A DNA stretch of 64,000 nucleotides. Origin: Antedon mediterranea (lineage: Eukaryota; Echinodermata; Crinoidea; Comatulida; Antedonidae). Where the stretch lies: NCBI RefSeq assembly GCF_964355755.1, contig NC_092675.1, positions 2,886,312-2,950,311 on the forward strand, in the 5' to 3' direction. This document shows, piece after piece, positions 1,349 to 42,935 of this stretch. Numbering within the stretch: position 1 is the stretch's first letter; each line of letters opens with the position of its first letter. A program made the position numbers and the translations under genes. The notes below the pieces were generated by a model. That model was not told the DNA's origin. It searched no databases and saw only the letters and a list, made by a program, of their open reading frames with translations.

Positions 1349-2398
1349 TCACCGTATGTTTATTTTCTTAAAGTTGGATGTGTTTTCCGTTACTATTTTG
1401 TCTTGAACGGTGACATTAACGTTAGCACTGAATGTAATATCGTCCTCTGTAACAACACACATTATATTTAAACCATCATTTAAACCAGCTAATTTCAGTT
1501 TATTAATCTTCAAAACATTTTCAGAGATCAGTTTAAAATGATCATCATCTAATTCCTTAATATCAACACCATCAATGGTCCACGAGAATAAAAAGTCATC
1601 AGTCAGAAAACCAGTCGCAATGCAAGTAAACAGCACAATTTCGCCATGAATAACAGAATTCCCAGTTTGTGTGATGGTGACGTCAGGTGACGCAAGCGGT
1701 ACGTAACTGCAGCCAATAACCATGTTACCTGATGCGTTAGTTTGTGCAACGCATGCAAATGTGTCGCCGTAATGTTCTGGTGAGAGTATTAATTTGTATC
1801 CAACAGAGTTTTTTCTGGTCTTCAGCAGTTGAGCCTCCGAGATGGTTTCCTCGTCTAACACATCAGGATGACGTATCTTAACCCAAGACACAAAGAGTGA
1901 CTTTGATAGAGCTGACGAATTCCAGGAACATCTTAGATTAGCTTTCTTACCGAGTTGAGGTCTTCCATGTTTTGGTTGCTTCGTTCTCAACGAGCAATTA
2001 GGTTTTTGTAAAACAATTAAAGAATATCCGTCGTAAAATATATCTTCCATCCTGGGACCACCATCAGATAACGCACAAACATAATTCGTAGTATCAGCAG
2101 ACGAGATTTTAATATCTAAATTATAAGACATGTTTTCTCGATCGTCTGTTATGTTGTATTTTTCTTTTGCTTGATTTCGAACAACGATTTCCGAACCATT
2201 GCTGATAGTATTTGTATTAGTAGTGGTTTTAACTGTAAACCAAGTTGGCGTTAGACGTGAATACGGTTGTTTAAAGTAAGTGCAATTTAACGTCACTACA
2301 TCTTCTTCAATAACTAATAACTCTACAGATCTCTGACATCCAAAAACAACACAAAAACAACAAGTTAACAGGACCGCTATAAAAACAACGCGGACCAT
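1349..2398 (-). CDS. Ig-superfamily protein A, predicted secreted (3 Ig domains)
   Basis: This is an intronless frame. I chose the Met at 2398 rather than the one nine codons upstream (2425), because it matches the start of the neighbouring paralog (MVR...) and gives a clean signal peptide (hydrophobic VVFIAVLLTCCFCVVFG, then CQRS). Counting from the upstream Met, a V-like Ig domain has C48 and C117, domain 2 has C166 and C225 plus an extra pair C144/C239, and domain 3 has C268 and C323. Many NxS/T sites are present. The protein stops shortly after domain 3 (ending KKINIR) with no transmembrane helix, so it should be secreted, unless an unseen downstream exon is spliced on. It is a close tandem duplicate of the gene at 3023-4042. 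The function is unknown; immune recognition is inferred from architecture and cluster context. Confidence 0.85.
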   Translation of the reverse strand: MVRVVFIAVLLTCCFCVVFGCQRSVELLVIEEDVVTLNCTYFKQPYSRLTPTWFTVKTTTNTNTISNGSEIVVRNQAKEKYNITDDRENMSYNLDIKISSADTTNYVCALSDGGPRMEDIFYDGYSLIVLQKPNCSLRTKQPKHGRPQLGKKANLRCSWNSSALSKSLFVSWVKIRHPDVLDEETISEAQLLKTRKNSVGYKLILSPEHYGDTFACVAQTNASGNMVIGCSYVPLASPDVTITQTGNSVIHGEIVLFTCIATGFLTDDFLFSWTIDGVDIKELDDDHFKLISENVLKINKLKLAGLNDGLNIMCVVTEDDITFSANVNVTVQDKIVTENTSNFKKINIR

Positions 2399-3022: not shown

Positions 3023-4042
3023 TTATATTTGTACAGTACCTATTTCTTTATCAGTAACATTTATTTTGGCACTGAATATAATATCGTCCTCTGTAACAAG
3101 ACACTTTATATCCAAACCATCAGCACCTAATTTAAGTTTATTAATCTTCAAAACATTTGTAGAAATCAGTTTAAAGTTATCGTCATCTACCTCCATAATA
3201 TCAACACTATCAATGGTCCACGAGAACACAAAGTCATCAGTCAGAAAACCAGTCGCATTGCACGTAAACAGCACAGCTTCGCCAATAACAGAATCTTCTG
3301 TTTGTGCAATGGTGACGTCAGGTGACGCAAGCGGTACGTAACTGCAGCCAATAACCATATTACTTGATGCGTTAGTTTGCGCAACGCACGCGAAGGCATC
3401 GCCGTAATGTTCTGGTGAGAGTGTTAATTTGTATCCAACAGAGTTTGTTCTGGTCTTCAGCACTTGAGCCACCGAGATGGTTTCCTCATCTAACACATTA
3501 GGATGACGTATCTTAACCCAAGACACAAAGAGTGGCTTTGATAGAGCTGACGCATTCCAAGAACATCTTAGATTAGCTTTCTTACTCAGTTGAGGTCTTC
3601 CACGTCTTGGTTGCTTCGTTTTCAACGAGCAGTTGGGTTTTTGTAAAACAGTTAAAGAATACCCGTCATAAAATAAAAAGTCTTCCATCCTGGGACCACC
3701 ATCAGATAACGCACAAACATAATACGTAGAATCAGCAGACGAGATTTTAATATCTAAATTATAAGACATGTTTTCTCGATCGTCTGTTATGTTGAATTTG
3801 TTTTTTGCTTGATTTCGAAAAACGATTTCCGAACCATTGCTGATAGTATTTGTAGCCATATCGGTATCGATATCGATTGTAATCCAAGTTGGCGTTAGAC
3901 GTGAATACGGTTGTTTAAAGTAAGTGCAATTCAACGTGACTATATCGTCTTCAATAACTAATAGCTCTACAGATCTCTGACATCCAAAAACAACACAAAA
4001 AGAACAAGTTAACAGCACCGCTGTAAAACCATTGCGGACCAT
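3023..4042 (-). CDS. Ig-superfamily protein B, predicted secreted (3 Ig domains)
   Basis: This is an intronless 339-residue frame starting MVRNGFTAVLL, with a signal peptide ending before CQRS. It has the same three Ig domains as gene A: DVVTLxC/DIVTLNC and YVCALSD in domain 1, LRCSW and FACVAQT in domain 2, LFTCNATGF and IKCLVTEDD in domain 3. It ends TDKEIGTVQI without a membrane helix, so it is predicted secreted. An AATAAA signal is on the minus strand at about 2967-2972, roughly 50 nt past the stop. Coding and flanking sequence match gene A and the remnant at 4650-5020 in one tandem unit of about 1.64 kb, which points to recent duplication. Differences from A concentrate in the loops of the first Ig domain and the extreme C-terminus. 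Confidence 0.88.
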   Translation of the reverse strand: MVRNGFTAVLLTCSFCVVFGCQRSVELLVIEDDIVTLNCTYFKQPYSRLTPTWITIDIDTDMATNTISNGSEIVFRNQAKNKFNITDDRENMSYNLDIKISSADSTYYVCALSDGGPRMEDFLFYDGYSLTVLQKPNCSLKTKQPRRGRPQLSKKANLRCSWNASALSKPLFVSWVKIRHPNVLDEETISVAQVLKTRTNSVGYKLTLSPEHYGDAFACVAQTNASSNMVIGCSYVPLASPDVTIAQTEDSVIGEAVLFTCNATGFLTDDFVFSWTIDSVDIMEVDDDNFKLISTNVLKINKLKLGADGLDIKCLVTEDDIIFSAKINVTDKEIGTVQI

Positions 4043-4649: not shown

Positions 4650-5020
4650 TTATACTGTATTTGCTCTCCAATTTTCCGAGTGTACAGTAGCTTTATCAGT
4701 AACATACATTTTGGTACTGAATACAATATTGTCCTCTTTAACAAAACACATTATATTTAAACCACTATCAACTATTTTCTGTTTATCAATCTTCAAAATA
4801 TTGTCAGAGATCAGTTTAAAATGATCATCATCTAATTCTAATAATAATATTAACCCCATCAATGGTCCAAGAGAACACAACGTCATCAGTCAGAACGCCA
4901 GTCGAATTGCACGTAAATAGTACGATTTTATCAATAACAGAACCTTCGGTTTTTGTGATGGTGACGTCAGGTGACGTAAGCGGTACGTAACTGCAGCCAA
5001 TAACCATATTACTTGATGCG
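4650..5020 (-). pseudogene. Truncated Ig-gene remnant (third tandem unit)
   Basis: The minus strand encodes the end of domain 2 and most of domain 3 of the same family (ELDDDHFKLISDNILKI, then a tail ending ENWRANTV). The frame is disturbed near 4840-4890: one frame covers the C-terminal part and a different one the upstream part around 4890-5000. Similarity to genes A and B stops abruptly at about 5020, where a 20-bp minisatellite begins. The signal peptide, domain 1 and most of domain 2 are absent. The 3' flank (4500-4650) is almost identical to that of gene B, including the AATAAA. This is a decayed paralog, not a working gene. Confidence 0.75.
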
Positions 5021-6474: not shown

Positions 6475-7515
6475 CTATATAACGGTAATATAGTATTCGT
6501 TTTCTAACTGATTGTGCGTATCTGTTTCTTGGTCAGTAGCATATACCTGGGCACTAAATGTAACATTGTCCTCTTTAACATGACACATTATATCTAATCC
6601 ATTATCAACTAATTTCAGTTTATCAATCTTCAAAAGATCGTTAGAGATCAGTTTAAAATGATCGTCATCTAATTCCATAACATCAACGCCATCAATGGTC
6701 CACGAGAACACAAAGTCATTGGTCAGAAAGCCAGTCGCATCGCATGTAAACAGCACATGTTTGCCAGTAATAGAATCTTTTATTTGTGTGATGGTGACGT
6801 CAGGTGACGCAAGCGGTACGTAACTGCAGCCAATGAGCGTGTTGTTTGAGGTTTCAGTTCGCGCAACGCACGCGAAGGCATCCCCGTAATGTTCTGGTGA
6901 GAGTGTTAATTTGCATCCAACAGAGTTTGTTCTTCTTTTCAGGACTTGAGCGTCCATGACTGTCTCCTCATTTACCACACCAGGATGATTTATCTGAACC
7001 CATGACACCGAAAGTGGATTCTGCTTCGACAAAGCTGACGAATCCCAAGAACATCTTAGATTAACCTTCTTACTGCGTTTTCCACGTCTGTTTCGTTTCG
7101 CTTCCATGGAGCAATTTGGTTTTGGGAAAGCAGTTACGGTATAACCATAATATGGAATGTGGTTAGCTATATTACCATCATTTCCTAAGGCACAAACAGC
7201 AAAATCATCTGGATGTACAGAATCAGGCGTGACTTTCAAATCGTACGTCATGTTGTTTCGGTCATCGGTTATGCTGTATTTATCTTTATTTTCAACCAAA
7301 ACGTCAGAGCCATTAGTGATCGTTTTGCCTTGTCCCATACCATGAATTATAAACCAAGTTGGCCATTGATCATCAAGTAGTTTATCGTAGTCACATGATA
7401 ATGTAACTACGTCGTCTTCAAAGGCTAACAGCTCGAAGCTACCTCGTTGACATCCAGAGACAACGCAAGAAGAATAGCTTAACAGTGCCGCTATAAAAAC
7501 AACCCGGGACATCAT
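6475..7515 (-). CDS. Ig-superfamily protein C, predicted secreted (3 Ig domains)
   Basis: This is an intronless frame. The Met at 7515 (MMSRVVFIAALL...) is preferred over the one 15 codons upstream (7560), because it matches the MMSRVV start of another paralog and begins directly at the signal peptide. Domain 1 has DVVTLSC and FAVCALGND, domain 2 LRCSW and FACVART, and domain 3 LFTCDATGF and IMCHVKEDN. The protein ends LENEYYITVI with no transmembrane helix. It is more diverged from A and B than they are from each other, and carries its own copy of the TTGGTACCA element upstream. Predicted secreted; ligand unknown. Confidence 0.87.
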   Translation of the reverse strand: MMSRVVFIAALLSYSSCVVSGCQRGSFELLAFEDDVVTLSCDYDKLLDDQWPTWFIIHGMGQGKTITNGSDVLVENKDKYSITDDRNNMTYDLKVTPDSVHPDDFAVCALGNDGNIANHIPYYGYTVTAFPKPNCSMEAKRNRRGKRSKKVNLRCSWDSSALSKQNPLSVSWVQINHPGVVNEETVMDAQVLKRRTNSVGCKLTLSPEHYGDAFACVARTETSNNTLIGCSYVPLASPDVTITQIKDSITGKHVLFTCDATGFLTNDFVFSWTIDGVDVMELDDDHFKLISNDLLKIDKLKLVDNGLDIMCHVKEDNVTFSAQVYATDQETDTHNQLENEYYITVI

Positions 7516-8235: not shown

Positions 8236-8803
8236 CTAATTATATAAACGTTTTTTTACAATTACTAGACTAACAATTACTGCACATAACAAAACAAAAC
8301 CTGCAATAGAAATACCAATAATGAGAGAAAGATCTGGTTTCTGTACGTCTTCAAAATCAACAGAAAATTGAGCACCGAATGTTGCATTGCCCTCTGTTAC
8401 AAGACACGTTATATCTGAACCAGTATCAACTAATTCCAATCTATCAATCTGCAAAACATTGTCAGAAATCAGCTTGAAATGATCGTCATCTAATTCCAAA
8501 ACATTAACGTCATCAATGGTCCAAGAGAACACAAAGTCATTGGTCAGAAAGTCAGTCGCATCGCATGTAAACAGGACAATTTCTCCAATAACCAAATCCC
8601 CGGTTTGTGCGATGGTGATGTCAGGTGACGTAAGTGGTACGTAACTACAGCCAATGAGGGTGTTGTTTGACGTTTCAGTTCGCGCAACGCAAGCAAAGGT
8701 ATCACCGTAATGTTCTGACGAGAGTGTTAATTGGTATTCAGAAGCGTCTGTTGCCGTGTTCAGTTTTGGAACTTGCCGTATTGTTTTTTCATCTAACACA
8801 TCA
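8236..8803 (-). pseudogene. Ig gene D, 3' part (domains 2-3, TM, short tail), separated by LINE
   Basis: The minus strand encodes the second half of domain 2 (from DVLDEKT), domain 3 (LFTCDATDF, ITCLVTEGN), a linker, a transmembrane helix (IIGISIAGFVLLCAVIVSLVIV) and only a short basic tail, KKRLYN, before the stop. The 5' half of the same gene lies at 11387-11904. The split is exactly where paralogs read HP|DVLDE, and a retrotransposon fills the gap. Before insertion this was a membrane-anchored member without the tyrosine motifs of genes E and F. With a 2.6-kb opposite-strand insertion in its coding region it cannot give the full protein unless the insert is spliced out. Confidence 0.85.
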
Positions 8804-11385
8804 GCACAGCACAGCACAGCTCTATTGCGATATTTCCGATCACCTACCTGTTTTTTCTATATCTACCTTAACATACAAAAATACTCAAGCAGTCAGTAGA
8901 CCTCCAAATAAACCTTTTAGGAAAATTAATGAAAATAACATCAAACAATTTAAACGAGAGCTTAGCGTAATAACATGGAACGATGTGAACTTATTGCAAG
9001 AACCTAATCAAGCTTATAATACTTTTGAAACTAAATTAAAACTTTTATATAATAAACATTTTCCAATGACTACGCAAAGTAAAAAAAACACAAAATTAAA
9101 ACCTTGGATGTCAAATGGTCTGTTGCAATCTACTAAATATAAACACAAGTTATATGCTAAATACCTAAATAATCCTACCAATCATAATAAAATAAAATAC
9201 ACTAAATTCCGTAATACCTTAAATTCACTTATTAAACGTGTTAAAACCGAATACTATCAAAACAGATTCACTCAATGTCAACATGATATTAAAGGTACTT
9301 GGCGCGTAATTAACTCCTTGATTAAAAGGTCTCCGAATTTGAATACGAAAGTTGTTCTAACAGGCAATAATGGTGAATCCATTGAAGACCCGTCTCAAAT
9401 CGCAAATGAATTCAATAAGTTTTTTGTCGAAATTGGACCAACTCTTTCAAAAAATTGCCAACCGATCAATCTTATTTTAAAACGTATTTGCCCTTACCTA
9501 CTTTAAACTCTTTATTTATGTGTCCAGTGTCTGATACAGAAATTATAGATATTGTCAAGTGTTTTAAAACTAATAAAGCGCAAGGACTTGATGAATTCAG
9601 TCCAAAAGTTATTAAACAATCAATTTCCCTTTTGGTTAAACCTCTATGTCACATATTTAATCTGTCTTTAACAAAAGGAGTTTTTCCAAATAAATTGAAA
9701 TTGGCAAGAGTTACTCCCATCTTTAAAGCAGGAAAAAAGGACACTTTATCTAATTACCGACCGATCTCAGTCCTTTCGCTATTTTCTAAAATATTAGAAA
9801 GAATTATCTATAATAGAACCTATGCCTTTATGGAAAAAAATAATATTCTATGCAATAAGCAATTTGGATTTCGCAAACATTTTGATACCGCAATGGCCTT
9901 AATTGATTTGTCCAATGAAATAATAGATGCATTTGAAAATGATGAGTTTGCAATTGGTGTTTTTGTCGATCTATCGAAAGCATTCGATACCATTAACCAT
10001 CCCATTCTTCTTTCAAAACTGTATCACTATGGTATTCGCGGTGTTCCTCTCAATTTATTTAAGAGCTATTTATCCAACCGCTACCAATGTACCAAGTTTT
10101 GTGATTCCCAATCTGACTATTTGCCTATTACCTGTGGAGTACCACAAGGTTCATTACTAGGTCCTCTTCTGTTTCTTTTATATGTGAATGATATTTACAA
10201 TTCGTCAGTATCTTTATCTTACTTTTTATATGCAGATGACACAACACTAATCTGTAAAAATCGACACTTAGAGTCGTTATTTAACACTGTAAATACAAGT
10301 TTAATTAATGTATCCGAATGGTTTCTGGCAAACAGCCTTTCTGTAAATCTAAAAAAGTGCAGCTATGTTTTGTTTAGAAGTAGTACGATGCCGATTAAAT
10401 TAGGTCCATTGCAAATTAAACTAAATGGTTCTGTTCTCCCCATGGTCAATCATGCAAAATTTTTGGATGTATCCATTGATAGTCGTCTGACATGGAAACC
10501 CCATGTTATTGAGACTGAAAACAAAATCTCAAAAAATATTGGTATAATTTGTAGACTGGCATCTTTTCTTCCACATCATATTCTCCGAACACTCTACTGC
10601 TCCCTTGTTTTGCCATATCTTTTATATTGCAATATCGTTTGGTGTAACACATTCCCATCTAATTTAAATAAACTTCAAATACTACAAAAGAAAATCATTC
10701 GAATAATTTCGAATGTTTCACCTAGAACTAGTACAGATCCTTTATTTCGTTCTCTCAAATTATTAAAATTAACAGATATTAATATTTTCCAACAATGTTT
10801 ATTTATTTACAAAAGCCAAAATGCTCTTCTTCCATCTCATTTACGCGATATGTTTTCTCCCAATTATGAATTTCACGGCTATTCCACAAGAATCCTCAAT
10901 AACCTTCATATTCCTAAACATAAAAAGACTTCTTTTCAACATAATATTAGATTTACTGGACCCAAGATATGGAACTCACTTCCTAACAAAATTAGGCCTA
11001 CAACTTCTGCAAACAAACATAGCTTCGTCTTTAACACTAAACAATATCTAATACAAAAGTAAATTAATTAACTAGTTATATTCTAGGTTTCAGTTTTTTA
11101 TTGTTTTCATATTCCGTTATGGTAATTACTTTATTCCTATATACCATTTATTATTATTTACTAATTTGATTTTAGTTACTTTTTGTTTTGTTCAGGCACT
11201 TTCAACACAAGCTTTTGCTTTTTAGAAATTGTGCCTCCTTCATAATATTGTTTTATTCATGTTAAAGATGAGAAAAAAAAAATTGTATTGTTTTAACTAT
11301 CTTTCTTGTTGTCATGAATTTTGTGTATTATATTTTTTTGTATATTATGAAGGAAATAAATGTTATTATGATGATGATGATGATG
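8804..11385 (+). mobile_element. 5'-truncated non-LTR retrotransposon (CR1/L2/Jockey-like)
   Basis: The insert starts with three or so gcaca units, then enters coding sequence at the end of an APE-type endonuclease (DISDHLPVF). It runs through a full reverse transcriptase and a C-terminal region with FTGPKIWNSLP, a 3' untranslated stretch, and a simple tail of (atg)n at about 11363-11384. Truncation at the 5' end and a microsatellite-like tail are typical of target-primed LINE insertions. It sits on the strand opposite to the interrupted Ig gene. A target duplication is not evident. Confidence 0.9.
8821..11062 (+). pseudogene. LINE endonuclease-end + reverse transcriptase, one frameshift
   Basis: The first frame runs to 9506 and the second from about 9455 to 11062. 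They meet at an A-run (9449-9454), where one base appears gained or lost. In the second frame the RT motifs are intact: FVDLSKAFDTINH (motif A), GVPQGSLLGPLLFLLYVND (motif B) and FLYADDTTL (motif C, catalytic YADD). The region LSNYRPISVLSLFSKILERI is typical of CR1/L2/Rex-type elements. Most of the endonuclease is missing. The near-intact RT suggests a fairly young copy. Exact clade placement would need a phylogeny. Confidence 0.88.
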
Positions 11386-11386
11386 A

Positions 11387-11904
11387 GGATGACGTATCTG
11401 AACCCAAGACACAAAGAGTGTGTTTTGCAAAGCTGATGAATCCCAAGAACATCTTAGATCAACAATTTCACCGCGTTGTGATGTACCACGTCTAGGTTGT
11501 TTCACTTTCAACGAACAGTTCGGTTTTTGTAAAACAGTCAAAGTGTACAAAAACGCATGCTTGGTTGTATCGATAACATCCGATAACGCACATGCGTAAA
11601 TTGATAGACCTGTAGAATCGGTTTTAACATCCAAATTGTACGCCATGTTTTCTCGGTCATCAGTTAAGTCGTATTTATTTTGATCAGCCAAGATTTTAGA
11701 TCCATTAGTGATCATTTCTTCTATGCCGTCTTCAGTAGCTCTAGCCCAATAAGCTACCGTTAAATTTAGTTTCTCAGTGTAGCTACAATTTAACGTGACT
11801 ACATCTCCTACGATGGCTAACAGGTCTCCGGATCGTTGGCATCCAAAAACTACACAAGCATAATAAGATGACAGCATCGCAATCAAAACAACACGGGACA
11901 TCAT
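11387..11904 (-). pseudogene. Ig gene D, 5' part (signal peptide, domain 1, start of domain 2)
   Basis: The minus strand starts MMSRVVLIAMLSSYYACVVFG, then CQRSGDLL, followed by a V-like domain (DVVTLNCSY...IYACALSD) and the first part of domain 2 (LRCSW, VSWVQIRHP). The frame then runs into the LINE's (atg)n tail, which adds a spurious run of histidines. The sequence continues in register at 8803. Start and signal peptide look intact. Transcription from this promoter would give, at best, a truncated one-and-a-half-domain protein. Confidence 0.87.
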
Positions 11905-12035: not shown

Positions 12036-12478
12036 TTCTCGGATACAATTCATGGGTTCAATATCATACATTATAGGCCTATCTATATCATGATAGATTA
12101 CCATTAAAAGGATGTTCTTCCTGTCTCGATACAGATCTGTAAGTACATTATGCTTTGACTTAAACAAGTGGCACATTTTGGTACAGTACTTCCTTGTGGC
12201 GCCATTTTAGATTTGTCTACAGTATTTGCTCACTTAGACTGAGTGGTCGCTTGAAGAACATGAACAAAAGTTAAAACATTTATTAGATTTATGGTTTAAA
12301 ACATTTTTGGTTATTTAATTATATACATTGAATAATCAAAATGAGTATATAACAAAACTTATTTTAACAAAGCAAGAATTTGCCAAAATGTCAGAATATA
12401 GTAGGCCTACATTCTCTCGTGCTATTCTTTTGTGAACAAAAAATATGCATATAACCGTTTCATTTTCTACAGCGATTT
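12036..12478. other. Intergenic stretch between Ig genes D and E
   Basis: No gene is visible. Short pieces near 12210-12260 resemble the tail-coding repeats of gene E (tttgtctacagtatttgct, gactgagtggtcgcttgaag). They may be a decayed extra tail module just beyond the present stop. Confidence 0.45.
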
Positions 12479-14326
12479 TTATTCTAGTACAACCATTGGA
12501 ATATCTGCTTGATATGCATAAAAATCCTTGGATTTGTCCACAGTGTTTACTTTCTTAGACTGGGTGCTCACTTGAAGAGATTCATATTGTGATGACAGAC
12601 GTGGACCTAAATCAGTGTAATCATCATTATTAGAAGAAGATTCTTTATTTGCCGATGCTTTCGGCACACTACTTCCTTGTGACGCCCATTCCGATTTGTA
12701 AACAGTGTTTGCTTTCTCAGACTGGGTGCTCGCTCGAAGAGATTCATATTGTGATGAAAGACGTGGACCTAAATCAGTGTAATCATCATTATTTGAAGAA
12801 GATTCTTTATTTACCGATGCTTTTGACACAGTACTACCTTGTGGCGCCCTGTTAGATTTGTCCCCAGTATTTTCTTTCTCAGACATAGTGCTTGTTTCAA
12901 CAGATTCATATTGTGGACCTACATTAGTGTAACCATCATTCGAAGAAGATTCTTTATTTGCCGATGCTTTTGGCACAGTGCTTCCTTGTGGCAACTTGTT
13001 AGATTTGTCCCCAGTATTTTCTTTCTTAGACATAGTGCTTGTTTCAACAGATTCATATTGAGGTCCCACATCAGTGTAATCATGATTCGAAGAAGGTTCT
13101 TTATTTGCCGATGCTTTTGGTACAGTACTACCTTGTGGCGCCCTTTCAGATTTTCCAGACTGTAAAGTTTCGTAGGCCGATGGAGGGTGAGGATATTGCA
13201 ACGCTAAATAAGAATTATCCCCGTCTGAAGTACTATTTTGAGCGTTTGAATTATCATTAGTTGTAGAATAATATAAGGTTTTGACTAGTCCAAAAATGAC
13301 AGCACAGAGGCCTACAACATCAACAACTAAAACAGAAATACCGACAGAGATATTTTCAGAGTTTGGTTTCTGTACGTCTTGGACAATAAATTGAGCACTA
13401 AATGTAATATCGTCTTCTGTAACAAGACACATTATATCCAAACCAGCTGATTTCAGTTTATTAATCTTTAAAACGTTGTCAGAGATCAGTTTAAAGTGAT
13501 CGTCATCTACCTCCATAATATCAACACCACCAATGGTCCACGAGAACACAACGTCATCAGTCAGAAACCCAGTCGCCTTGCAGGTAAGATGCAACATTTC
13601 GCCAACAACAGCATCTTCTGTTTGTGCGATGCTGACGTCAGGTGACGTAAGTGGTACATAACTGCAGCCAATGATCGTGTTGTTTGACGTTTTTGTTCGC
13701 GCAACGCACGCGAAGGTATCACCGTAATGTTCTGGTGAGAGTGTTAATTTGTAGCCAGTAGAGTCTTTTTTGGTCTTCAGCAAGTCAGCTTCCATTATCG
13801 ATTCCTCATTCAATACATCAGGATGACGTATCTTAACCCACGACACAGAGAGTGGCTTTGGCAAAGCTGACGAATTCCATGAACATCTTAGATTGATTTT
13901 CTTGCTACGTTTTCCACGTTTGTTTCGTTTTGCTTCCAACGAGCAAGTAGGTTTCTGTAGAGCAGTTATCGAATATCTATTAGCAATAGAAATTACTTTG
14001 TCACCATCCGATAACACACAGATGTAAAACTCGGGTAGATCCATAGAATCCGTTTTAATTTCTAAATTGTATGTCATGTTTTCTCGATCGTCAATTAAGT
14101 TGTACTTATTCTGATTACTAACCACAATTTTAGAACCATTTGTGATGTAAAATCCATCATTGGTTTCGAATTTAAACCAACGTGGCGTTAGACTTGAATT
14201 ACCGTTGGTACATTTTAACGTAACCACATCTTGTACAATGGTCACGATATCAATTCGTTGACATCCGAGAAAGCAAGCCATGAAAGCTAAACTAGACATC
14301 ATGCTTTTCAGTTGTTGTGAAGGCAA
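12479..14326 (-). CDS. Ig-superfamily receptor E: 3 Ig domains, TM with Asp, ITAM-like tail
   Basis: This is a single 615-codon frame. The start at 14326 gives a signal peptide of usual length (MPSQQLKSMMSSLAFMACFLG); the Met at 14302 is an alternative. Ig domain 1 has C39 and C103, domain 2 C148 and C207 with extra C128/C221, domain 3 C249 and C300. A transmembrane helix covers about residues 325-349 and carries an unusual acidic residue, D336 (SVLVVDVVGLC). The tail of about 265 residues has Y373LAL and Y385ETL eight residues apart, then four modules of 49-54 residues. The first two hold YTDV or YTNV followed by YESV; the last two hold YTDLGPRLSSQYESL. That last spacing fits the ITAM pattern YxxL-x6-8-YxxL. 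Y466TNV also fits a Grb2-type YxN. Predicted activating or mixed-signal surface receptor; signalling is inferred from motifs only. Confidence 0.88.
   Translation of the reverse strand: MPSQQLKSMMSSLAFMACFLGCQRIDIVTIVQDVVTLKCTNGNSSLTPRWFKFETNDGFYITNGSKIVVSNQNKYNLIDDRENMTYNLEIKTDSMDLPEFYICVLSDGDKVISIANRYSITALQKPTCSLEAKRNKRGKRSKKINLRCSWNSSALPKPLSVSWVKIRHPDVLNEESIMEADLLKTKKDSTGYKLTLSPEHYGDTFACVARTKTSNNTIIGCSYVPLTSPDVSIAQTEDAVVGEMLHLTCKATGFLTDDVVFSWTIGGVDIMEVDDDHFKLISDNVLKINKLKSAGLDIMCLVTEDDITFSAQFIVQDVQKPNSENISVGISVLVVDVVGLCAVIFGLVKTLYYSTTNDNSNAQNSTSDGDNSYLALQYPHPPSAYETLQSGKSERAPQGSTVPKASANKEPSSNHDYTDVGPQYESVETSTMSKKENTGDKSNKLPQGSTVPKASANKESSSNDGYTNVGPQYESVETSTMSEKENTGDKSNRAPQGSTVSKASVNKESSSNNDDYTDLGPRLSSQYESLRASTQSEKANTVYKSEWASQGSSVPKASANKESSSNNDDYTDLGPRLSSQYESLQVSTQSKKVNTVDKSKDFYAYQADIPMVVLE
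12580..13140 (-). repeat. Coding tandem repeat: tyrosine-motif tail modules of gene E
   Basis: Four in-frame modules of about 147-162 bp encode the repeated PQGST-PKASANKE-SSSNDxYT pattern and a tyrosine pair. The module starts can be followed by the tyrosine codons near 13078, 12931, 12781 and 12619. Modules 3 and 4 are the most alike and both contain the ITAM-spaced pair. Gene F has only two such modules. Copy number therefore changes the number of signalling motifs. Confidence 0.8.
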
Positions 14327-15520
14327 ATCCTGTTCGAATTAGCACGATTCCAATGTTAACGGTACAGACGTAATCCAAACACGAAATGTCCACATAAAGG
14401 CTACAAGCTCAGAAACAAAACAAATTATAATCGATTTAATAGATGTATTGATACAACAGTTATCTCTCTATTCCTATTAAACTACACACAAAATGTGCAG
14501 TTGGTTCCTTTGCAGATTCCTATTAAAATATGTTTGGCTTACTATAACTGACGCAAACATCTCAACTTTTGGATTGCTGGTTTCAACTTCTTACATATTA
14601 TAATAAACCGATTCGCACATTAAAATAAGGAAAAGAAACTTAACTAAAAACGAGTCGGAAACATTATCATATCATGTTCTGGGTACTTGGCTACCATCTT
14701 GAACACTCAAAGTCATTCAACAATTCCTGTTATTGTATAAATAATTGTGTTTTTTTACGATTACCGTACCTTGTATTTTTTTCACGTAGAAAAGTAACAT
14801 TACAATATAATATTGAAAATGCAAGAATATTATTTAAGAAGACTTGTTCACATGGAGGTTGTCAGTAGGTTAATCAAGAATTTAAAAAGCGGGAATAAAT
14901 AGGTCACAACCTCGATACATTAGGTTGATCATGCTCTATTTACATTGAAACCTCAACGTTTAGTAAGTACCGGTAATAAATGTAAGTGTTATAATAGATA
15001 TTATATTCTAAACACTTGAGTTAACTTTAAGACAAGGTTATTCAAAACGATATATTCAAATTACGATAATAAGAAATAATTGCGACATAAACCGTTACAT
15101 GAGTATTGTTTGAATAATTATAGCTTTAATTAATGACGTACTTTCACCCGAAAATCTAAACATGTTTACTTAAATGCGGGATGTAGCAAAATATACCATA
15201 CATAAAACCAAAGATATACACATTGTAAACAAAATGGCCAAAAAAAAAGCAGACTGGATCCCTAAATGGACCAGAACCTGGCCAAAATACAGTAGTTAAT
15301 AAATCAAAACATCTCTATTCATTACCTCAATATCAACGTCATATACTAAACACGCCATTTTCTAAGTATACAGATACAAAAGCAATTTAAAATATACCTG
15401 CACAAGTATTTTATTATCAAATAGTTATCAAAATAATGGCCAATTCATAGATATAGGCTTACGGTAAATTGTATATCTCAACCTCAATTTAAATAATATG
15501 TAAATTCTAGTAAGCATAGG
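14327..15520. other. Intergenic stretch upstream of Ig gene E
   Basis: Immediately upstream of gene E the words gttcgaattagcacgattcc resemble gttcgaatttgtgagattcc upstream of gene F, so this may be the transcription start region. The rest is AT-rich with no gene. A 64-codon plus frame at 14674 has no recognisable features. Confidence 0.4.
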
Positions 15521-18032
15521 TTAAAGATGTATTGTCCCCCAAAAAATGAAAAATAAAGATGAAAAAAATCAAATTTTGAATAGACCGTTTAGTAGTTAAC
15601 ATAAAGTTATTCACTTCCACCGAAAAAAAATCCGAAAAAAATATTGATTTCGCTTATAAAAAAATCAAAATAAGTTTACCATTTTTTCGAACTCATCGGC
15701 TCAGAAATTAGGCCGGTAGAGCTAACTCATACATATGCATGATATGTTAATGAGCATCCACACAGCAGAGATCTGATCTAACAATGGACGATGCACGTTG
15801 TATGTACAACACCACCACCAGAGATCGACGCGATTCGACTGTGGGTTTCCCTGGCCTGATCGTATAAATATGTAAAGCTGAGCTGTTAATTTGTCGGTAA
15901 GTAGGCCTAGACGGTTATTTTAATAATAATAATATATATAACGCAATAATAACAGGAAGGTAAATTAATTAACTTAACCTGGGATTTTTTCAGTTCAGGG
16001 CTAGGCCTAGAATAATTAATACATGCTGCTGCATATTACTAGTACGCCGGCGTTACTAGTAGGCTAGTAGCAAGCAGACTGTGACAATCGGGTCCCTGCA
16101 GAAGATGCCCAGCTAGGCCCTATCTATACATTGTACTCTTCATAGACTGGCCTAGGCTATATGCCATCAATCTTAGCTACATTCCGAAAATACAGCCAGC
16201 TTGCTGTACCATATATATTTACAGTTGAAGCTTGTTTAACTAATTTTTATGATAAAAATAAAACAAACATTTTTCAGGGAAAATGGTTGCAATACAATAC
16301 AAGCCTGAAATTGAGAACCTTCCAGCAGCACTGTACAAGTAGACAGAGGGGAAAAGTCAGCTTAGCCATTTTACAACACAAACAAATGTTCTCTGTACTG
16401 TAGTAAGTCAAATATTTATTTTCTCTTTTTATAAGTTATAACATTATAAGTAATGTGTTTTAATTACCATAGAAAGGTAGTATACTTATTTGACTATGTC
16501 AAAGTAAGCAATTTCACTAGCCCAATTTTGCACTAAATATGCATGATCTATTTTTTCCAGATTTTCATACTTTGCTTTTACGTTGAGCTGATGAAGACTG
16601 GAACAGAGGTCACCCAAAGACAACAATGATAGACTCGGTATTGGAATATGATTGGATATTGCAGGAAAAATATTTCTGACTCTCCTGCTGCATTCGGCCA
16701 ATATGTTCTTGTCCAGCTTGTAAAATATTGTATCATTTTTTTTGTATTATATGTACAGTATATTATTTTGTAAACATAACATTCAATAAATAAAAAAAAA
16801 ACTACTACAACAGTACACAGGATAAATTCTTCAAATTTACTTACACTTCATAATTTTACTGTAAATATTACAGTGCAAAAGGAGTTAATAAAATATATAT
16901 ATACAGTATATCTGATTGAATTCCTGTATTGTTTTTTGTGTCAATTTTAATTATCAATGTGTTGATTGTGGCAGTAATTACGACAGCTATAGTCTTCTAA
17001 GATCGCTCACATCCATTACAAAGTGTCATTTTAATAGTAAGAAACGTTTCAATAAATTGTGAATGTTGCCACTGTACGATACATTTTATGTTTCTCACTA
17101 CTTGCTCTTATTGTTCAATCAATCAACCTAAAAAAAAAAAGGAATTTGTGTCAAAATATCTGCATAAAATGTTTATTTGCAGAATGTTAATTTGAACCTA
17201 TTGCATTTGATACAGAAAATATTTTAAAAATATTGCATCAGTAAAACATCCAAAACAATATTTAGATTTTTTTTTTTTTAAATTTTCACTGCCGAATAGA
17301 TAGTCGAAATCTTTAAAAATTAAACCAATTCATCATGATTAAAACAAAAATACATCCCTTCTGGTGGTGTTCTACTGTAGCCCTAGCTAGCAGTGTACTG
17401 CCTAGGCCTACTACACTCTCTACTTCTAGAGACAGAAGTAGGCAGCAGTTAGGCTACTCGAGACTGTCAGTGCTAGTAGTAGTAGTAGTTACTAGTAGGC
17501 CTAGTAGTAGACTAAGAAAACTAGTAGTACAGTAGCAGCAAATTCGGGCCTAGGCCTAGCTAGGCCTCTCCTGTTAGCGAAACAAAAACTCACCTAAATG
17601 AATAAGATTCAACATCAAAGTTACCAACTGTAATTCTAACTTAGCATTCTGCTAGCTATAGTTTTCTTGTTTTCTTCAAGATTCGTCTCGCATCACTACT
17701 CGACTCTCTCCCGCACGCATACATTGCTATCGTTGTTGGCTAGGCTGTTGATTTGGAAAGCATCATCATCCACACGATGTATCCATACAATATGAATATT
17801 TATGAGCTAACTCAGGTCAAGGGTTAAATTAAACCGGAACACATTTGTCTTCCAGACAAATAGCTTCCGGTTGGTTAATTTTTGCATTAAATTGCGATTT
17901 TCCCGTGTAAAAAATTATTTTTTTCAATCCAAATTGAGGTCAAAGTGAATAACTTTTATGTGCAATTAAAATGGCCTATTCAACAAAAATATTTAAAAAA
18001 AAATTTTTTTCAGGGGGACAATACATCTTTAA
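15521..18032. mobile_element. 2.5-kb TTAA-flanked element with inverted termini (full-size member)
   Basis: The left end reads TTAA-agatgtattgtccccc and the right end gggggacaatacatct-TTAA. Longer subterminal inverted similarity runs over about 150 bp at each end. Two short palindromic relatives of about 340 bp lie at 35936-36270 and 56533-56881 with the same ends and TTAA borders. TTAA target duplication is characteristic of piggyBac-type transposition, but I see no transposase: the interior has only short frames (16161-16403 plus, 16486-16701 minus). The interior also has CTAGTAG-rich sequence at 17385-17535 and a nested hairpin at about 17826-17880 (accggaa...ttccggt). The right TTAA contains the stop codon of gene F. 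Confidence 0.75.
16274..16338 (+). other. Short exon-like frame inside the TTAA element
   Basis: After a splice-acceptor-like ttttcag lies an ATG at about 16284 opening MVAIQYKPEIENLPAALYK and a stop. The word AIQYKPEIENL resembles the N-terminus of CXXC-type zinc-binding (CZIB) proteins, but the similarity is only about eleven residues and ends abruptly. It could be a captured exon fragment or chance. Confidence 0.2.
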
Positions 18033-19678
18033 AGTACATTTGCATAAACTGTGTCTCTTTCTAAAACGATTTTAATTCCAGTTACTGGTTCTGCATAATC
18101 ATACACATGTGCATAGTCATTGGGAACAGCTGTTTGATTTGCATAATGAGACTCCTCGGATTTGTCCACAGTATTTGCTTTCTTAGACTGGATGCTCACG
18201 TGAAGAGATGCATATTGTGATGAAAGACGTGGACCTAAATCGGTGTAATCATCATTCGAAGAGGATCCTTTATTTGTCGATTTTTTTGGTGCAGTAGTCT
18301 TTCTTCCTTGTGGCGCTCTTTTAGATGTGTCCCCAGCATTTGCTTTCTTAGACCGAGTGCTTGTTTCAACAGATTCATATTGTGGGCCTAAATCAGTGTA
18401 ATCATCATTCGAAGAAGGTTCTTCATTTGGCGCCCTTTCAGATTTTCCAGACTGTAAAGTTTCGTAGGCCGATGGAGAGTGAGGATATTGCAACGCTAAA
18501 TATGAATCATCACCATCTGAAGTACTATTGTGAGCGTTTTCTTTTGCCGTATTCTGTGTGTTGGTATGAGTACCCTCCTTTATTTTTCTAGAATTACAAA
18601 AACGTTTGATAACAATTACAAGCCCAACAATGGCAGCACATATCACAACAAAACCTGCAACGGAAATACCAGTAACTACAAATATATTTTCAGAGTTTGG
18701 TTCCGGCATGTCTTGGACAGCAACTGAAAATTGAGCACTGAATGTGATATCATCCTCTGTAACAAGACACTTTATATCCAAACCATCATCAGCTAATTCA
18801 AGTGCATTAATCTTTAAAACATTGTCAGAAATCAGTTTAAAATGATTATCCTCTAATTCCATAATGCTAACACCATCTATGGTCCATGAGAACCCAAAGT
18901 CATTGGTTAGAAAGCCAGACACATTGCACGTAAATAACGCAATTTCACCAATAACAGAATCCCCGTTTTGTGTAATGGTAATGTCGGGTGGCGTAAGTGC
19001 TACGTAACTGCAGCCAATTATCGTGTTGTTTGAGGTTTCTGTTCGCGCAACGCACGCGAAGGTATCACCGTAATGTTCTGGTGAGAGTGTTAGTTGGTAT
19101 TGAGAAGTGTTTGTGGCAGTGTTCAGTTCTGGAACTTCCATTATCGTTTCTTCATCTAACACATCAGGATGATGTATCTGAACCCACGACACCAAGAGTG
19201 GCTTTGACAAAGCCGACGCATTCCAAGAACATCTTAGATCAATTTTCTTACCGCGTTGCGATGTACGACGTCTCGGTTGTTTCGCTTTTAACGAGCATTT
19301 TGGTTTTGGTAAAACAGTTAAAGAATATCCATAATACAATTCGGTTGCACTCTCACCATCCGATAATGAACAGACATAACGCTTAGGTAGATCCGTAGAA
19401 TCAGTTTTAATTTCTAAATTGTATGTCATCTCTTCTCGATCATCTGTTAAGCTGTATTTAGTTTGATCAGCAACGACTTGAGAGCCGTTAGTGATTGTTC
19501 CCGATTCACTGGCAATTGTTACCCACGATAGCGTCAAACTAGAATTAAATTTCTCATTGTAGCTACAATTTAACGTGACTACATCTTCAACGATGGCTAA
19601 CAGCTCACCAGATCTTTGGCACCCAAAAGCAACATAAGAAACACAGGTTAACAATATAAACACAACACGGGATGCCAT
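18029..19678 (-). CDS. Ig-superfamily receptor F: 3 Ig domains, TM, ITAM/ITIM/ITSM-like tail
   Basis: This is an intronless 549-codon frame starting MASRVVFILLTCVSYVAFG, then CQRS. Domain 1 has C38 and C103, domain 2 C150 and C209 with extra C128/C223, and domain 3 C251 and C304. The transmembrane helix is about 332-358 (VVTGISVAGFVVICAAIVGLV), followed by IKRF. The tail has Y393LAL and Y405ETL eight residues apart (SAYETL also fits the ITIM pattern SxYxxL). It also has Y427TDL with Y434ESV three apart, and Y478TDLGPRLSSQ-Y489ASL with ITAM spacing of seven. Further tyrosines are Y512, Y522, Y526 and a C-terminal TVY545ANV that fits the ITSM pattern TxYxxV and the Grb2 YxN pattern. Predicted surface receptor with mixed phosphotyrosine signalling; the ligand is unknown. 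The TAA stop lies inside the TTAA target site of a transposon. Confidence 0.9.
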   Translation of the reverse strand: MASRVVFILLTCVSYVAFGCQRSGELLAIVEDVVTLNCSYNEKFNSSLTLSWVTIASESGTITNGSQVVADQTKYSLTDDREEMTYNLEIKTDSTDLPKRYVCSLSDGESATELYYGYSLTVLPKPKCSLKAKQPRRRTSQRGKKIDLRCSWNASALSKPLLVSWVQIHHPDVLDEETIMEVPELNTATNTSQYQLTLSPEHYGDTFACVARTETSNNTIIGCSYVALTPPDITITQNGDSVIGEIALFTCNVSGFLTNDFGFSWTIDGVSIMELEDNHFKLISDNVLKINALELADDGLDIKCLVTEDDITFSAQFSVAVQDMPEPNSENIFVVTGISVAGFVVICAAIVGLVIVIKRFCNSRKIKEGTHTNTQNTAKENAHNSTSDGDDSYLALQYPHSPSAYETLQSGKSERAPNEEPSSNDDYTDLGPQYESVETSTRSKKANAGDTSKRAPQGRKTTAPKKSTNKGSSSNDDYTDLGPRLSSQYASLHVSIQSKKANTVDKSEESHYANQTAVPNDYAHVYDYAEPVTGIKIVLERDTVYANVL

Positions 19679-23496: not shown

Positions 23497-24696
23497 TCAC
23501 CTTGATACAACACTACAACTTGAAGTTGTACTTGTTCTTTGTGCTTCCTCAGTTATTTGACTTTCAGGAACAAACCTAAACAATGGCGCCGTCTCTAAAA
23601 TGACCCTGGCTGCATCCTCCCGTACAAGATCCCTAAGATGTTCAATCAGTTTTCCGATAGTGTTTTCTGGATCTGCACCCCATTCCATCAAGGTTCTAAC
23701 CGTAGGACTGTCAGATTCATCTTTACTGAACGGCCTGTTGGTAGTATCCAGGTCTGGAATCTTTTCTACCAAGCCAATAGTTACTGCTAAAAGACACCAG
23801 TCTTTCCCCATTGGATCTGGAGGATCTAATAACATACTTAACTGTCTGAGTGTGTATGGATGTAACTGGGACACATGCAAATGTGGACCAGGCACAATGT
23901 TTGCATCGACTTCAGTGCTTCCAAAAAAAAGTAAATCCAAGAACTCTTCATTTGTGTCGGTAACCTCATTATACATGCTGATCTGATGCTCTTGAAGAGT
24001 CTTGTAGATCTTTTTGCCTTCATAAACCATAAGACATCTGTGATGCTCTTTTAATTGGGCAGCACTGATGATGTCGCGGTTTAACAGTAACCCTGGGTAT
24101 AGCTCTGCAAACACCTGTTCAACCAGGTGTACTAAGTCTTCCATGAAGACAAAGCAGCCCTGTTGGGCATCTTCTAGCCCTCTAACAACAATCTCTACAC
24201 TCTGTCCTTCATTGGTTAGTGACAATAACGCTTCCATTGAAGCAGTCGAACACTTGGCACCATGACGCCATAAAATAAGCTCAGTCTCTGGATCATCAAC
24301 GTCTTGGTGGAAGTTCCTTCTTAAGGCCACCTGAATTTCTGCAAATGCTCCTATAGGTAGAACACACCCACTATCTGAGAGCTGGAGTCGTGTTCCTCCA
24401 TAAACCATACAACTGTCGCCCTGCTTCTCCCAGATTAATGGCGGACGTTTGGTGTACAAGAGCGATGGGAACTCACAGACAGCTCCATGAACACATATAT
24501 CCATTGCTTCGAGCAATTGTATAATGTCCGTAACTTCAGCTTGAGGGAACATTGACTGCATGTAATGAACACTGTATAAACCATATGGCTGGTCAGAGAA
24601 CTCGAAAGATAGAAGTTGACCTAACACAATTGAGGTCATCCATCTTGGTTCAATCAACATAAGATCATGCAGCAAATCATTCTTAAAGTGATGTAC
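23497..24696 (-). CDS. DAPK1: DAPK1-type exon: COR region, death domain, C-terminus
   Basis: Terminal coding exon of 1200 nt, phase 0. The acceptor is tttttttag before GTA CAT CAC. It encodes VHHFKNDLLHDLMLIEPRW (COR start), MDICVHGAV, DPPDPMGKDWCLLAVTIGL, the death domain and the serine-rich end SCSVVSR. The C-terminal five residues and the DPPDPxGKDWCLLA block are shared with vertebrate DAPK1. Confidence 0.95.
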   Translation of the reverse strand, partial: VHHFKNDLLHDLMLIEPRWMTSIVLGQLLSFEFSDQPYGLYSVHYMQSMFPQAEVTDIIQLLEAMDICVHGAVCEFPSLLYTKRPPLIWEKQGDSCMVYGGTRLQLSDSGCVLPIGAFAEIQVALRRNFHQDVDDPETELILWRHGAKCSTASMEALLSLTNEGQSVEIVVRGLEDAQQGCFVFMEDLVHLVEQVFAELYPGLLLNRDIISAAQLKEHHRCLMVYEGKKIYKTLQEHQISMYNEVTDTNEEFLDLLFFGSTEVDANIVPGPHLHVSQLHPYTLRQLSMLLDPPDPMGKDWCLLAVTIGLVEKIPDLDTTNRPFSKDESDSPTVRTLMEWGADPENTIGKLIEHLRDLVREDAARVILETAPLFRFVPESQITEEAQRTSTTSSCSVVSR

Positions 24697-27600
24697 CTAA
24701 AAAAAATACAAAAAGGTTTAAGTGGAAGTTTTTGACAAACTGTTCTTATATATGGATCTGCCAAAAATTATTTAAACTTACCAACCGTACAAGAAATGTT
24801 ATTTAACATTAATGCTTAGATGGACTTTCTTCTGATATGAAGGCAACCGAAGCCGCGACATTTTAAACAAGAATTATTTTCGACGAATGTTCATGCGATA
24901 CTTAATACAAGCAAAATATGCAAATCAGCTGCCTTTGAAATAGCTTCGAGTACAGTAAATGTTCCGAAGTGAATATCGATAATATTTTTTAGCTGAAAAG
25001 TGCATTTACTGGTACACGGAACACATATTTTGAAAGCACACCCTGTCATTTCTTGTTTACTAACACTAGCACATTTACTCATGAGACTTTTCAAGAGCAG
25101 GAAGTTGAAGTAACTTAATACAAAGAGTGTCCTCACTACCCAGTGCATACTATAAGTTCAAAGTTCATCTTCCATTACTATTCTTTTACTGTAGTTTACT
25201 GCAGTAACAACATTGCTTACTCTTAAATTGTTTATGCAGTTATTTAGCAAGACTATGGGGATAATCACACACACTGTTTTATGGCAGTGACTGCCTCCTA
25301 AACAGCAAACTAAAACAAGTTTGCAGCAAAGAAATGTATGGCATGGTCCCTTACCTCACCCATAGATTTCAGCTGCTGGATAACTTCTTTAAGTTGATGA
25401 TCATTGGCTAACGGATTGACATCCGAGTGAATTGCATCTATTAATTGTTGAGTTGACATTACAGGGAAGTCAGCATAGGACTTTCTCCAATTATTCAAAG
25501 CAACAACAACGGATTCACATAATACTGTCATGTATGGCTCATTCTGAAATCATAACAAACATGTTTTTCTTCAACTTAAATTTGAAATGTAGATACATTT
25601 AAGGTTTACTGGGTTAGGATATTGACAGGGGAGTTGTTTTTATTTGGTCTGTTATGCATATTTGCTAATGATTTGTATGTGTTATACTGGGACATTCTGA
25701 TAGAAAAATCTTTCTACTAAAGTTTGTAGGTTATTAACATAATTAGTCAAAGTTGCATCATAATGCTTTGTGGTCTCAAGTCACAGGTTCAAATCTAGGA
25801 AAGAGCTGTTTTATCGTGCTGATTATAAATGGAATTTTGATTAAACAGCAATTGTGTTTTTCATATTTTTATGTTTGCTGCCCTCAACATGTAGAATTAT
25901 TTCCAATTGAACGAAACAACCTTAATCTATTCTTACAAATTGTTGTGCTAGTATTTTTTGTGTGCTTTTTTAACACAAATTATAAATCGTTGAAAAAAGG
26001 CAGTTGTACCAGATGAATGGAAATGGCATACATTTATATACTTGTAAAACTGTTTTCTTACTTTAACTATTGCATTCTTTATATTTGCAAGGTGTTGGCG
26101 TAACATTTTCATGTCTTTGGATTGTGGATTCTTTGTGTCCATTACAAACAACATCTCACTGATATCAAATAATCGTCCAAATCGTTTCTTCATTTGATAC
26201 AGAATGATGTTGCCTTCGCCGCTGACACTCTCTCCAGAAGACAGTTTAGGACAGTTGCGCAGATCAGCGTGGGTACCGACAAGTATAATCCGCAATTGGC
26301 TTGAATACTTTCCACAATATCCTGAAAAAAATTATTTAGATATTGAACAGTATAAAAAAAAATCATTTTAAAGCCTCTTTACATTGTGTTAAATTACTTA
26401 TTATGAATATTCTAATACTGTATAAAGACCTCCCAGGTTAAGAACACAATGCAAAATGAACTTCTTGGATAAAATGACAGTAGACAATATTTAAACTCAG
26501 TTTTTTCAACTAGCAAGGAAAAAAGTTATTTTTGGCCAATATACTACTGTATATTATAAATTGTTTAAGAAAGTTTAATTAATTGATTAAAAAGTTAAAA
26601 TTGATTCTTTTTTGAACTTGTTATGAAATGTTTTTTTTTGACATTTCTTCACTGTCTTTTAGCATGTTTTTTCTTTTTTTATTGGGAACTGCTGACTCAA
26701 AATTCTAATATTAAAACGGTAAACAAACAAACATGTACATAGTTTTTTTTTACATAGCGCCAAAACTGGCCGTTTTGATCTTTGATATGCTAAGCTGAAT
26801 CATCGTCTATAACTTAGACTAACCAATGGTTTGGTTTGCAGGTAATGCTGACTTGATGTAGTTTAACCAATAAGTGACTTGTTCAACTTGTTCCTCAAAT
26901 GAGTCCAATAGACTAAAACAAATGACGTTGATACTGTCACTCCCATCATTTATAAAATGATGATGAGATATGTGGAATGGCTCTGCTCCTGAAAACTCCC
27001 AAATACTGAAATCACCAGCTCCTAAAGACAAAATACAAATTTATAATTTGTTAAATATAAACATTTATTTACGTCCATTTTGTGTGTACAATAATGGAGC
27101 GGTTAAAGTGTACATACAGTATATGTTGATATAACGTTTGCGGTACATCACATGTATAATAGTTCTGAAAAGAACTGTTTTGTTTCTTGATGTTTCGATC
27201 AATATACTACGTTCTCACTCCTGAGGTCGATTGAAGTAGATTGATCGAAACTTTGAGAAACTCAACAGTTCTTTTCAGAACATTGTGAACCACAAACTTG
27301 ATATCAACATATTGATTTCGCCATGCCAACCTTCAAACAATATAGTGTATATATTTGCACTGATGAAGGGCTAGTGTTGCCCGAAAGCTCTGCTAACTTT
27401 TCTGGCTGTTTTACTTTATCGTTTTGATTTAGCTTTTCGCTTTTTTTTGTATCTCCATTGAGATCCAACCTGATACCCACAGCATTGTCATTTTTTCAGT
27501 ATTTTGCCTTTGGATTTATAAAAATATGTGTAGTAATATTTTAAAATAATAAAAAGGAAGAAGGCAGGATCCTAGAAAGATACTGGATGTTGAGATGGTA

Positions 27601-42667: not shown

Positions 42668-42935
42668 GACTGATGTTGGGAGGAGGCTGATGTTGGGCGG
42701 AGGCTGATGTTGGGAGGAGGCTGATGTTGGGAGGAGTCTGATGTTGGGAGGAGGCTTATGTTGGGAGGAGGCTGATGTTGGGAGGAGGCTGATGTTGGGA
42801 GGAGGCTGATGTTGGGAGGAGGCTGATGTTGGGAGGAGGCTGATGTTGGGAGGAGGCTGATGTTGGGAGGAGGCTGATGTTGGGAGGAGGCTGATGTTGG
42901 GAGGAGGCTGATGTTGGAAGGCCGGAGGCTGATGC
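42668..42935. repeat. 17-bp G-rich minisatellite
   Basis: About 15 units of ctgatgttgggaggagg. The opposite strand has a false frame of a 17-residue repeat because three units make 51 nt. Regular GGG and GG runs on the plus strand give it potential to form G-quadruplexes. Confidence 0.92.

Follow-up and report, generated by a model that had tools for sequence, protein, structure and literature searches.

Genes E and F lie within a 64,000 nt stretch of the genome of the crinoid Antedon mediterranea (assembly GCF_964355755.1, contig NC_092675.1, positions 2,886,312 to 2,950,311 of the forward strand), referred to here as the window. Each is a single-exon gene encoding an immunoglobulin (Ig) ectodomain, one transmembrane segment (TM) and a long tyrosine-rich tail, and together they stand in a row of minus-strand copies of one family: A, B, a fragment, C, a split copy, E and F (Table 1). 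An earlier note on this DNA had described both the architecture and a tandem, intronless family, and these are borne out by the uninterrupted open reading frames (ORFs), Pfam matches and hydropathy. It had treated E and F as a receptor 'pair', which is too narrow, as they represent two of at least 183 loci. This genome-wide single-exon family, the tails of which appear to have been partly exchanged, is a larger and better supported finding than the motifs of E and F themselves.

In Pfam searches, one Ig domain exceeds the cut-off in each protein (Ig_3 in E, 7e-9; C2-set_2 in F, 8e-6), with V-set and C1-set matches falling below it. By alignment, each ectodomain appears to comprise three Ig domains, as judged from the comparison of paralogues and the conserved Cys/Trp pattern; Ig1 and Ig3 pass, or nearly pass, the cut-off in other paralogous copies. 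The N-termini are moderately hydrophobic on hydropathy alone (best 19-residue mean 1.82 in F and 1.74 in E). E and F have diverged to a dS of 0.53 and a dN of 0.25 (Nei-Gojobori), and as dN/dS is 0.46 at this distance (0.42 in the ectodomain, 0.58 in the tail), both look maintained. A profile of the window's ectodomains weakly matched T-cell receptor V domains in the PDB over Ig1 (best 8e-5) and T-cell receptor beta constant regions over part of Ig3, with a Pfam C1-set match that does not reach the cut-off; domains of the C1 type are found mainly in vertebrates. AlphaFold2, given five sequences from the window, modelled the F ectodomain with a pLDDT of 40, too low for use.

Tyrosine motifs in the tails of E and F

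The earlier note had reported pairs of YxxL motifs with the spacing of vertebrate-type immunoreceptor tyrosine-based activation motifs (ITAMs), and all of these were located, three in E and two in F (Table 1). When each tail was shuffled 20,000 times, three such pairs were never attained for E, and two were attained once for F; likewise, the 10 Yxx[LIV] motifs of E and the eight of F were not equalled in any shuffle. As these counts are almost never reached, ITAM spacing exceeds that expected from composition in both tails. By the same test, matches to the immunoreceptor tyrosine-based inhibitory motif (ITIM) are in marginal excess, the three in E being reached in 219 shuffles (1.1%) and the two in F in 893 (4.5%), and the single match in F to the switch motif (ITSM), TVYANV, is within chance (1,506 shuffles, 7.5%).

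Every ITIM match shares the second tyrosine of an ITAM-spaced pair (three of three in E, two of two in F), and these ITIMs are therefore not separate motifs; no independent ITIM outside the pairs was found by regular expression in either tail. Hence SAYETL does fit the ITIM pattern, as had been noted, but uses a tyrosine already assigned to an ITAM, while the ITSM pattern is fitted by F and absent from E. The proposal that three independent motif classes coexist on one receptor was consequently rejected as double counting, with only F having all three even by regular expression. TVYANV occupies the same position in F as the last tyrosine of a tandem ITIM found in some relatives.

Most of the E tail consists of tandem repeats, which have multiplied its tyrosine pairs; the second and third of these pairs lie within repeat units. 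Alignment of six units from E and F revealed three with an x3 spacing, which is not that of an ITAM, and three with the x7 spacing and a four-residue RLSS insert; since shuffles ignore these repeats, the x7 ITAMs count as one event. Nevertheless, both genes retain an x8 as well as an x7 ITAM-spaced pair despite their synonymous divergence, and all seven of the tyrosines in F that precede its non-corresponding C-terminus are kept in the alignment with E.

The genome-wide family and its tails

The estimate of at least 183 distinct loci is the union of five protein-query searches, merged by position, and is a lower bound as each search scores best candidates only. Listings were collated by hand, with apparent repeats dropped and matches within 300 bp joined, and because of this merging distance one broken gene may yield two loci. 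Within the window, for instance, three loci come from one fragment and the halves of the split copy. At 158 of the 183 there is an open frame of at least 350 amino acids (aa) and the match is free of stops; the median open frame is 496 aa. Used as a query, F finds only its own cluster and one distant locus, L001, at E <= 1e-5, and its tail matches E and F alone at E <= 0.01; 80 matches were obtained with L001, and 68, 84 and 59 with further relatives. The family is present on nine of the 11 large contigs (about 353.5 of the 354.4 Mb assembly for all 11), in 27 separate places divided by gaps of over 150 kb, including the arrays in Table 1. Crinoids are reported to have n = 11. Among the matches listed, which are best candidates only, most lie in long open frames and none looks like an ordinary multi-exon relative.

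Ninety loci outside the window, chosen by score and spread over clusters rather than randomly, were read individually. A TM was called in 88 and an N-terminal hydrophobic stretch in 79, using hydropathy thresholds set by the authors, and the ORF was closed in 88. Ten relatives scanned with Pfam contain Ig domains and no other domain above cut-off; a sushi domain was matched neither in these ten nor in E and F. L001 has lost the TM and tail frame that its 94% identical neighbour, L004, retains; this locus and L112 may represent either young inactivation or assembly errors.

Tail motifs were counted in 86 of these loci plus E and F, giving 88 tails (L001 and L017 had no TM in the ORF taken, and the ORFs of L035 and L041 were not closed). 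Relative to 300 shuffles, there is an excess of Yxx[LIV] (213 against 109 +/- 9), of YxxP (95 against 44 +/- 6), which is a Crk/Nck-type SH2 motif, and of ITIM (64 against 28 +/- 5). A C-terminal tandem ITIM, its tyrosines 20-23 residues apart, is present in 11 of the 88 tails by strict regular expression, against a mean of 0.1 and a maximum of 1 in shuffles; those of L077 (LNYAELDL...SITYATLQT) and L105 (LTYAEIEF...LDYATVQIKK) are examples. All 11 are on contigs C2 and C7, with near-forms recognised by eye in L012 (C11), L030, L038 and L101 and a half-module in L078. They do not represent 11 origins, because they are partly related by descent, and one of these tails aligns through to its end at 13 places in the C7 array. 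When seven groups of related tails were pooled, conservation was highest for tyrosine (0.67, compared with 0.42 for serine and 0.45 for threonine).

Other tail types were also observed. Repeated YxxP motifs of the LYAKP/LYSKP type, in L038, L039, L042, L044, L049, L101, L103, L105 and L108, stand upstream of the tandem ITIM or replace it, and the L016 tail, which differs from all others read, has repeats of approximately PAPKYPERSDY. Together, the two large arrays on C3 hold 48 loci. The members read there (L022, L025, L031, L033, L034, L036, L037, L051, L094, L097, L099 and L100) have in common a short tail containing VYFEPxD or a variant of this motif; similar tails occur in L050 and L096, elsewhere on C3, and in L098 on C10. 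Most of them also have a W..(S/T)...QV block.

The relationship between ectodomains and tails was examined in a quick tree of 89 ectodomains (omitting L001, L013, L015, L017, L039 and L102), in which 34 of 86 inner branches are open and the 16 rows marked as tandem ITIM are the 11 strict forms plus the five recognised by eye. E, F, A, B and C form one starred clade, within which the ITAM-tailed E and F are not set apart from the TM-less C, and tandem-ITIM and YDYV tails are intermixed in the C7 array. Pairwise, the ectodomains of L046 and L101 are 84% identical over 305 aa, and their tails are unrelated (27% in a forced alignment); L101/L104 and L052/L105 similarly combine ectodomain identities of 78% and 74% with unrelated tails. 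In L101/L103 the ectodomains are 68% identical and the tails 89%, and in L104/L106 the ectodomains are again 68% identical, with 87-89% given jointly for the tails of these two pairs.

The changes in identity are located close to the TM at the DNA level. In 90-bp blocks, L046 and L101 are 84-99% identical up to the TM, bar one stalk block of 67%; identity is 86% and 64% in the blocks just past the TM and 34-56% farther on; L052 and L105 break at about the same place. Between L104 and L101 identity declines from the stalk on (72, 64 and 58%, then 40-47%), and between L101 and L103 it climbs to 90-100% from the TM onward. Similar ectodomains bearing unrelated tails are thus interpreted as the trace of tail-swapping recombination, gene conversion included; the pairs that show it most clearly lose identity directly behind the TM, and the exchange is likely to have occurred near the TM.

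Candidate readers of phosphorylated tails are predicted elsewhere in the genome, where a search for SH2 domains returned 53 matches. One locus, L061, has two, and the best PDB match to its first SH2 exon is SYK (5.5e-38); kinase exons lie further along this gene (L113), and the piece of them searched matches one PDB record named EGFR first and then SYK chains. The SH2 exon of a second gene best matches PTPN11 (5e-39), and phosphatase-like exons were seen by eye alongside it. By these matches, the genome encodes a Syk-like tandem-SH2 kinase and an SHP-2-like phosphatase. SH2 exons of Csk- and Src-like type were picked out by eye alone.

Other copies and elements in the window

Genes A, B and C have Ig ectodomains ending before the position of the TM and may be secreted. 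The alternative that they are first exons of spliced TM genes is unlikely, as no GTRAG donor was found in their last 120 bp plus 60, and the most hydrophobic stretch that follows B coincides with the start of gene A; further hydrophobic stretches (2.1 to 2.4) downstream of all three genes weaken this argument. The copy at 8236-11904 appears to have been split in Ig2 by an opposite-strand non-LTR retroelement, with open pieces at 8658-9506 and 9419-11062 and a reverse transcriptase match (RVT_1, 5e-34); within Ig2, one Ig piece ends at roughly the position where the other begins.

Beside the receptor cluster, a minus-strand gene at 23497-24660 has a Death domain (2e-13) and a sub-cut-off COR-B match (4e-4), and a nearby minus-strand piece at 27516-27929 resembles a P-loop GTPase, also below cut-off; together these look like parts of a ROCO-Death gene. 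Minisatellites with 95-98% matches occupy 28742-29233 (36-bp units, open in several frames), 42670-42921 (17-bp units) and 59794-60282 (40-bp units). A degenerate neuropeptide pattern was uninformative, with 11 scattered matches compared with 8 in its reversed control, and a search for COX1 found none.

Table 1. Family members, tail motifs and arrays. Positions are those of the window, except for arrays, which are given by contig
Feature	Position	Strand	Basis or remark
Gene E, single-exon receptor, 607 aa	12479..14302	-	one ATG-to-stop ORF
E TM, approximately residues 318-340	13283..13351	-	Kyte-Doolittle
E tandem repeats, 147- and 162-bp units, most of tail	12531..13153	-	TRF and unit alignment
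E ITAM-spaced pair 1, YLAL-x8-YETL, residues 365-380	13163..13210	-	
E ITAM-spaced pair 2, YTDL-x7-YESL, residues 508-522	12737..12781	-	
E ITAM-spaced pair 3, YTDL-x7-YESL, residues 562-576	12575..12619	-	
Gene F, single-exon receptor, 549 aa	18029..19678	-	one ATG-to-stop ORF
F TM, approximately residues 332-356	18611..18685	-	Kyte-Doolittle
F ITAM-spaced pair 1, YLAL-x8-YETL, residues 393-408	18455..18502	-	
F ITAM-spaced pair 2, YTDL-x7-YASL, residues 478-492	18203..18247	-	
F C-terminal TVYANV, ITSM-like	18035..18052	-	
Array, 61 loci	C7:3.276-3.659 Mb		largest; 60 loci on one strand
Array, 28 loci	C3:18.57-18.91 Mb		
Array, 20 loci	C3:11.81-11.90 Mb		
Array, 20 loci	C11:15.81-16.13 Mb		
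Cluster, 11 loci	C6:2.888-2.982 Mb		window included
Gene A, Ig ectodomain, putative secreted form	1349..2398	-	ends before TM position
Gene B, Ig ectodomain, putative secreted form	3023..4042	-	ends before TM position
Fragment of further copy, Ig3 region	4671..5019	-	two pieces
Gene C, Ig ectodomain, putative secreted form	6475..7515	-	ends before TM position
3' part of further copy: end of Ig2, Ig3, TM	8236..8856	-	stop right after TM
5' part of probably the same copy: Ig1, start of Ig2	11293..11904	-	
Remnant of further tail repeat	12176..12257	-	in-frame stop; ends approximate

Interpretation and comparison with known systems

E and F are probably working single-chain, tyrosine-signalling Ig receptors, belonging to a very large single-exon family that resembles paired receptors. 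Their Ig domains would bind a ligand, a Src-type kinase would phosphorylate the tail tyrosines, and the tail would decide the output, in a presumed immune role. The ITAM-spaced pairs of E and F may recruit the Syk-like kinase, with an activating effect, while the C-terminal tandem ITIM of some relatives may recruit SHP-2 and be inhibitory; other relatives have YxxP or YDYV repeats, which would be of adaptor type, or very short tails, and A, B and C, lacking a membrane anchor, could act as soluble decoys. Recombination near the TM would exchange such tails between similar ectodomains. More tentatively, the family may be an independent, single-exon counterpart of the KIR/LILR type, its activating members having the ITAM in the same chain, in which a germline repertoire of well over 100 intact intronless receptors draws on one pool of ectodomains recombined onto interchangeable tails (ITAM, tandem ITIM, YxxP/YDYV, none, or secreted forms).

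A number of observations weigh against a working, family-wide signalling system. Some loci, above all in the C7 array, carry stops within the match. Across the 88 tails, ITSM is not in excess (8 against 5.4 +/- 2.2), and the five ITAMs of 6-8 spacing (against 1.2 +/- 1.1) equal the maximum of 300 shuffles. All five are in E and F, and a 6-12 window adds just L010; ITAM was therefore rejected as a family-wide feature and is confined to E and F, with few independent events. Tyrosine conservation in the pooled tails is only just above that of tryptophan (0.66) and proline (0.65), and in the alignment of the E and F tails tyrosine identity (0.67) barely exceeds the overall value (0.64), the latter because the C-termini do not correspond. 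Of the eight short-tailed members read, seven lack any charged residue within the 19-residue TM core, and L019 has a single Arg on the edge of the core; two of the 88 members carry a charge mid-core. There is thus no sign of short-tailed members with a charged TM for pairing with ITAM adaptors, the adaptors themselves not having been searched for. L112 owes its short tail to a poly-A run immediately following the TM, which differs by 1 bp from that of L109, and this tail may therefore be an assembly error. Finally, Yxx-hydrophobic sequences such as YxxL/V are also AP-2 endocytosis signals.

It is unlikely that the family serves to join cells during development, by adhesion or fusion in the manner of echinoderm KirrelL, with tails that dock Grb2/Nck/Crk-type adaptors rather than act as immune switches, although the excess of the Crk/Nck-type YxxP motif would fit, as would the best PDB sequence matches of L038, which include contactin, CD276, DCC, SYG-1 and Kin-of-IRRE proteins. 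Large tandem arrays, mosaic tails and TM-less copies are the pattern of a recognition repertoire rather than of single-copy adhesion genes. Also in favour of the adhesion reading, KirrelL itself is described as a single-exon Ig TM protein that every echinoderm examined possesses and that skeletogenic cells require for fusion (PMC8903837).

Allorecognition or self-recognition, in which the receptors would bind polymorphic self ligands as has been proposed for Botryllus FcoR and Hydractinia Alr, is quite improbable. The presence of the family in 27 separate places is unlike the single fuhc locus, even though the FcoR proteins are of similar architecture, having Ig domains, a TM and a long YxxL/V tail with ITIM and hemITAM in a multigene family (PMC12065747). 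There is a similarly low probability that the YxxL/V motifs of E and F are mainly AP-2 signals, their ITAM-like spacing being a by-product of the tail repeats from which, with the four-residue insert, pairs 2 and 3 of E derive, given that the x8 and x7 pairs are both kept in E and F at this dS and that the tandem ITIM of some relatives is far above shuffled expectation.

Within the favoured signalling interpretation, E and F are the ITAM-bearing branch, and candidate activating single-chain members, of a paired-type repertoire. The earlier note had considered a single-chain system of this kind unusual: the single-chain Ig receptors with ITAM-spaced tails are present, but ITAM/ITIM-type tails on invertebrate Ig receptors are already known in FcoR, Alr and oyster CgIgIT2. 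The last of these carries an ITAM in its own tail, as do E and F, and is described as one receptor with five Ig domains (PMC11999971). FcoR, in another invertebrate deuterostome, is a multigene family of 53 loci encoding Ig TM receptors, the long tails of which can contain ITIM, hemITAM and core YxxL/V motifs; its members comprise one V, one sushi and two C2 domains, and at some loci splicing exchanges the motifs (PMC12065747). By contrast, members of the crinoid family have three predicted Ig domains encoded by a single exon; their genes are mosaics of ectodomain and tail, at least 183 loci are spread over the genome, and E and F have full ITAM spacing. The Alr candidate allorecognition genes, likened here by motif description, also have ITAM/ITIM motifs but are cnidarian and form one complex (PMC12065747). 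KirrelL, compared by description only, is alike in being a single-exon Ig TM gene, for which an origin by retrotransposition has been proposed, with a role in skeletogenic cell fusion (PMC8903837).

No description of a single-exon ITAM/ITIM Ig family in invertebrates or echinoderms was found among the titles and abstract openings of the open-licence papers listed. If the tails act as their motifs suggest, opposed ITAM and tandem-ITIM signalling within one family would have existed, or arisen a second time, in an animal that is not a vertebrate, and on a scale like that of the leukocyte receptor complexes of mammals. As each receptor is one uninterrupted exon, the repertoire could be cloned and its tails swapped and directly assayed, which would make the origin of paired receptors open to experiment.

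Among vertebrate systems, KIR, LILR, SIRP and Siglec receptors similarly place like ectodomains on different tails, and the 20-23 residues between the tyrosines of the tandem ITIM compare with about 20-25 in PD-1, PECAM-1 and Siglecs. Vertebrate paired receptors are, however, multi-exon, and their activating forms normally combine a charged TM with a separate ITAM adaptor, whereas E and F carry the ITAM themselves. By analogy, and as a resemblance rather than a claim of homology, the crinoid family looks like an invertebrate counterpart of the vertebrate paired leukocyte receptors.

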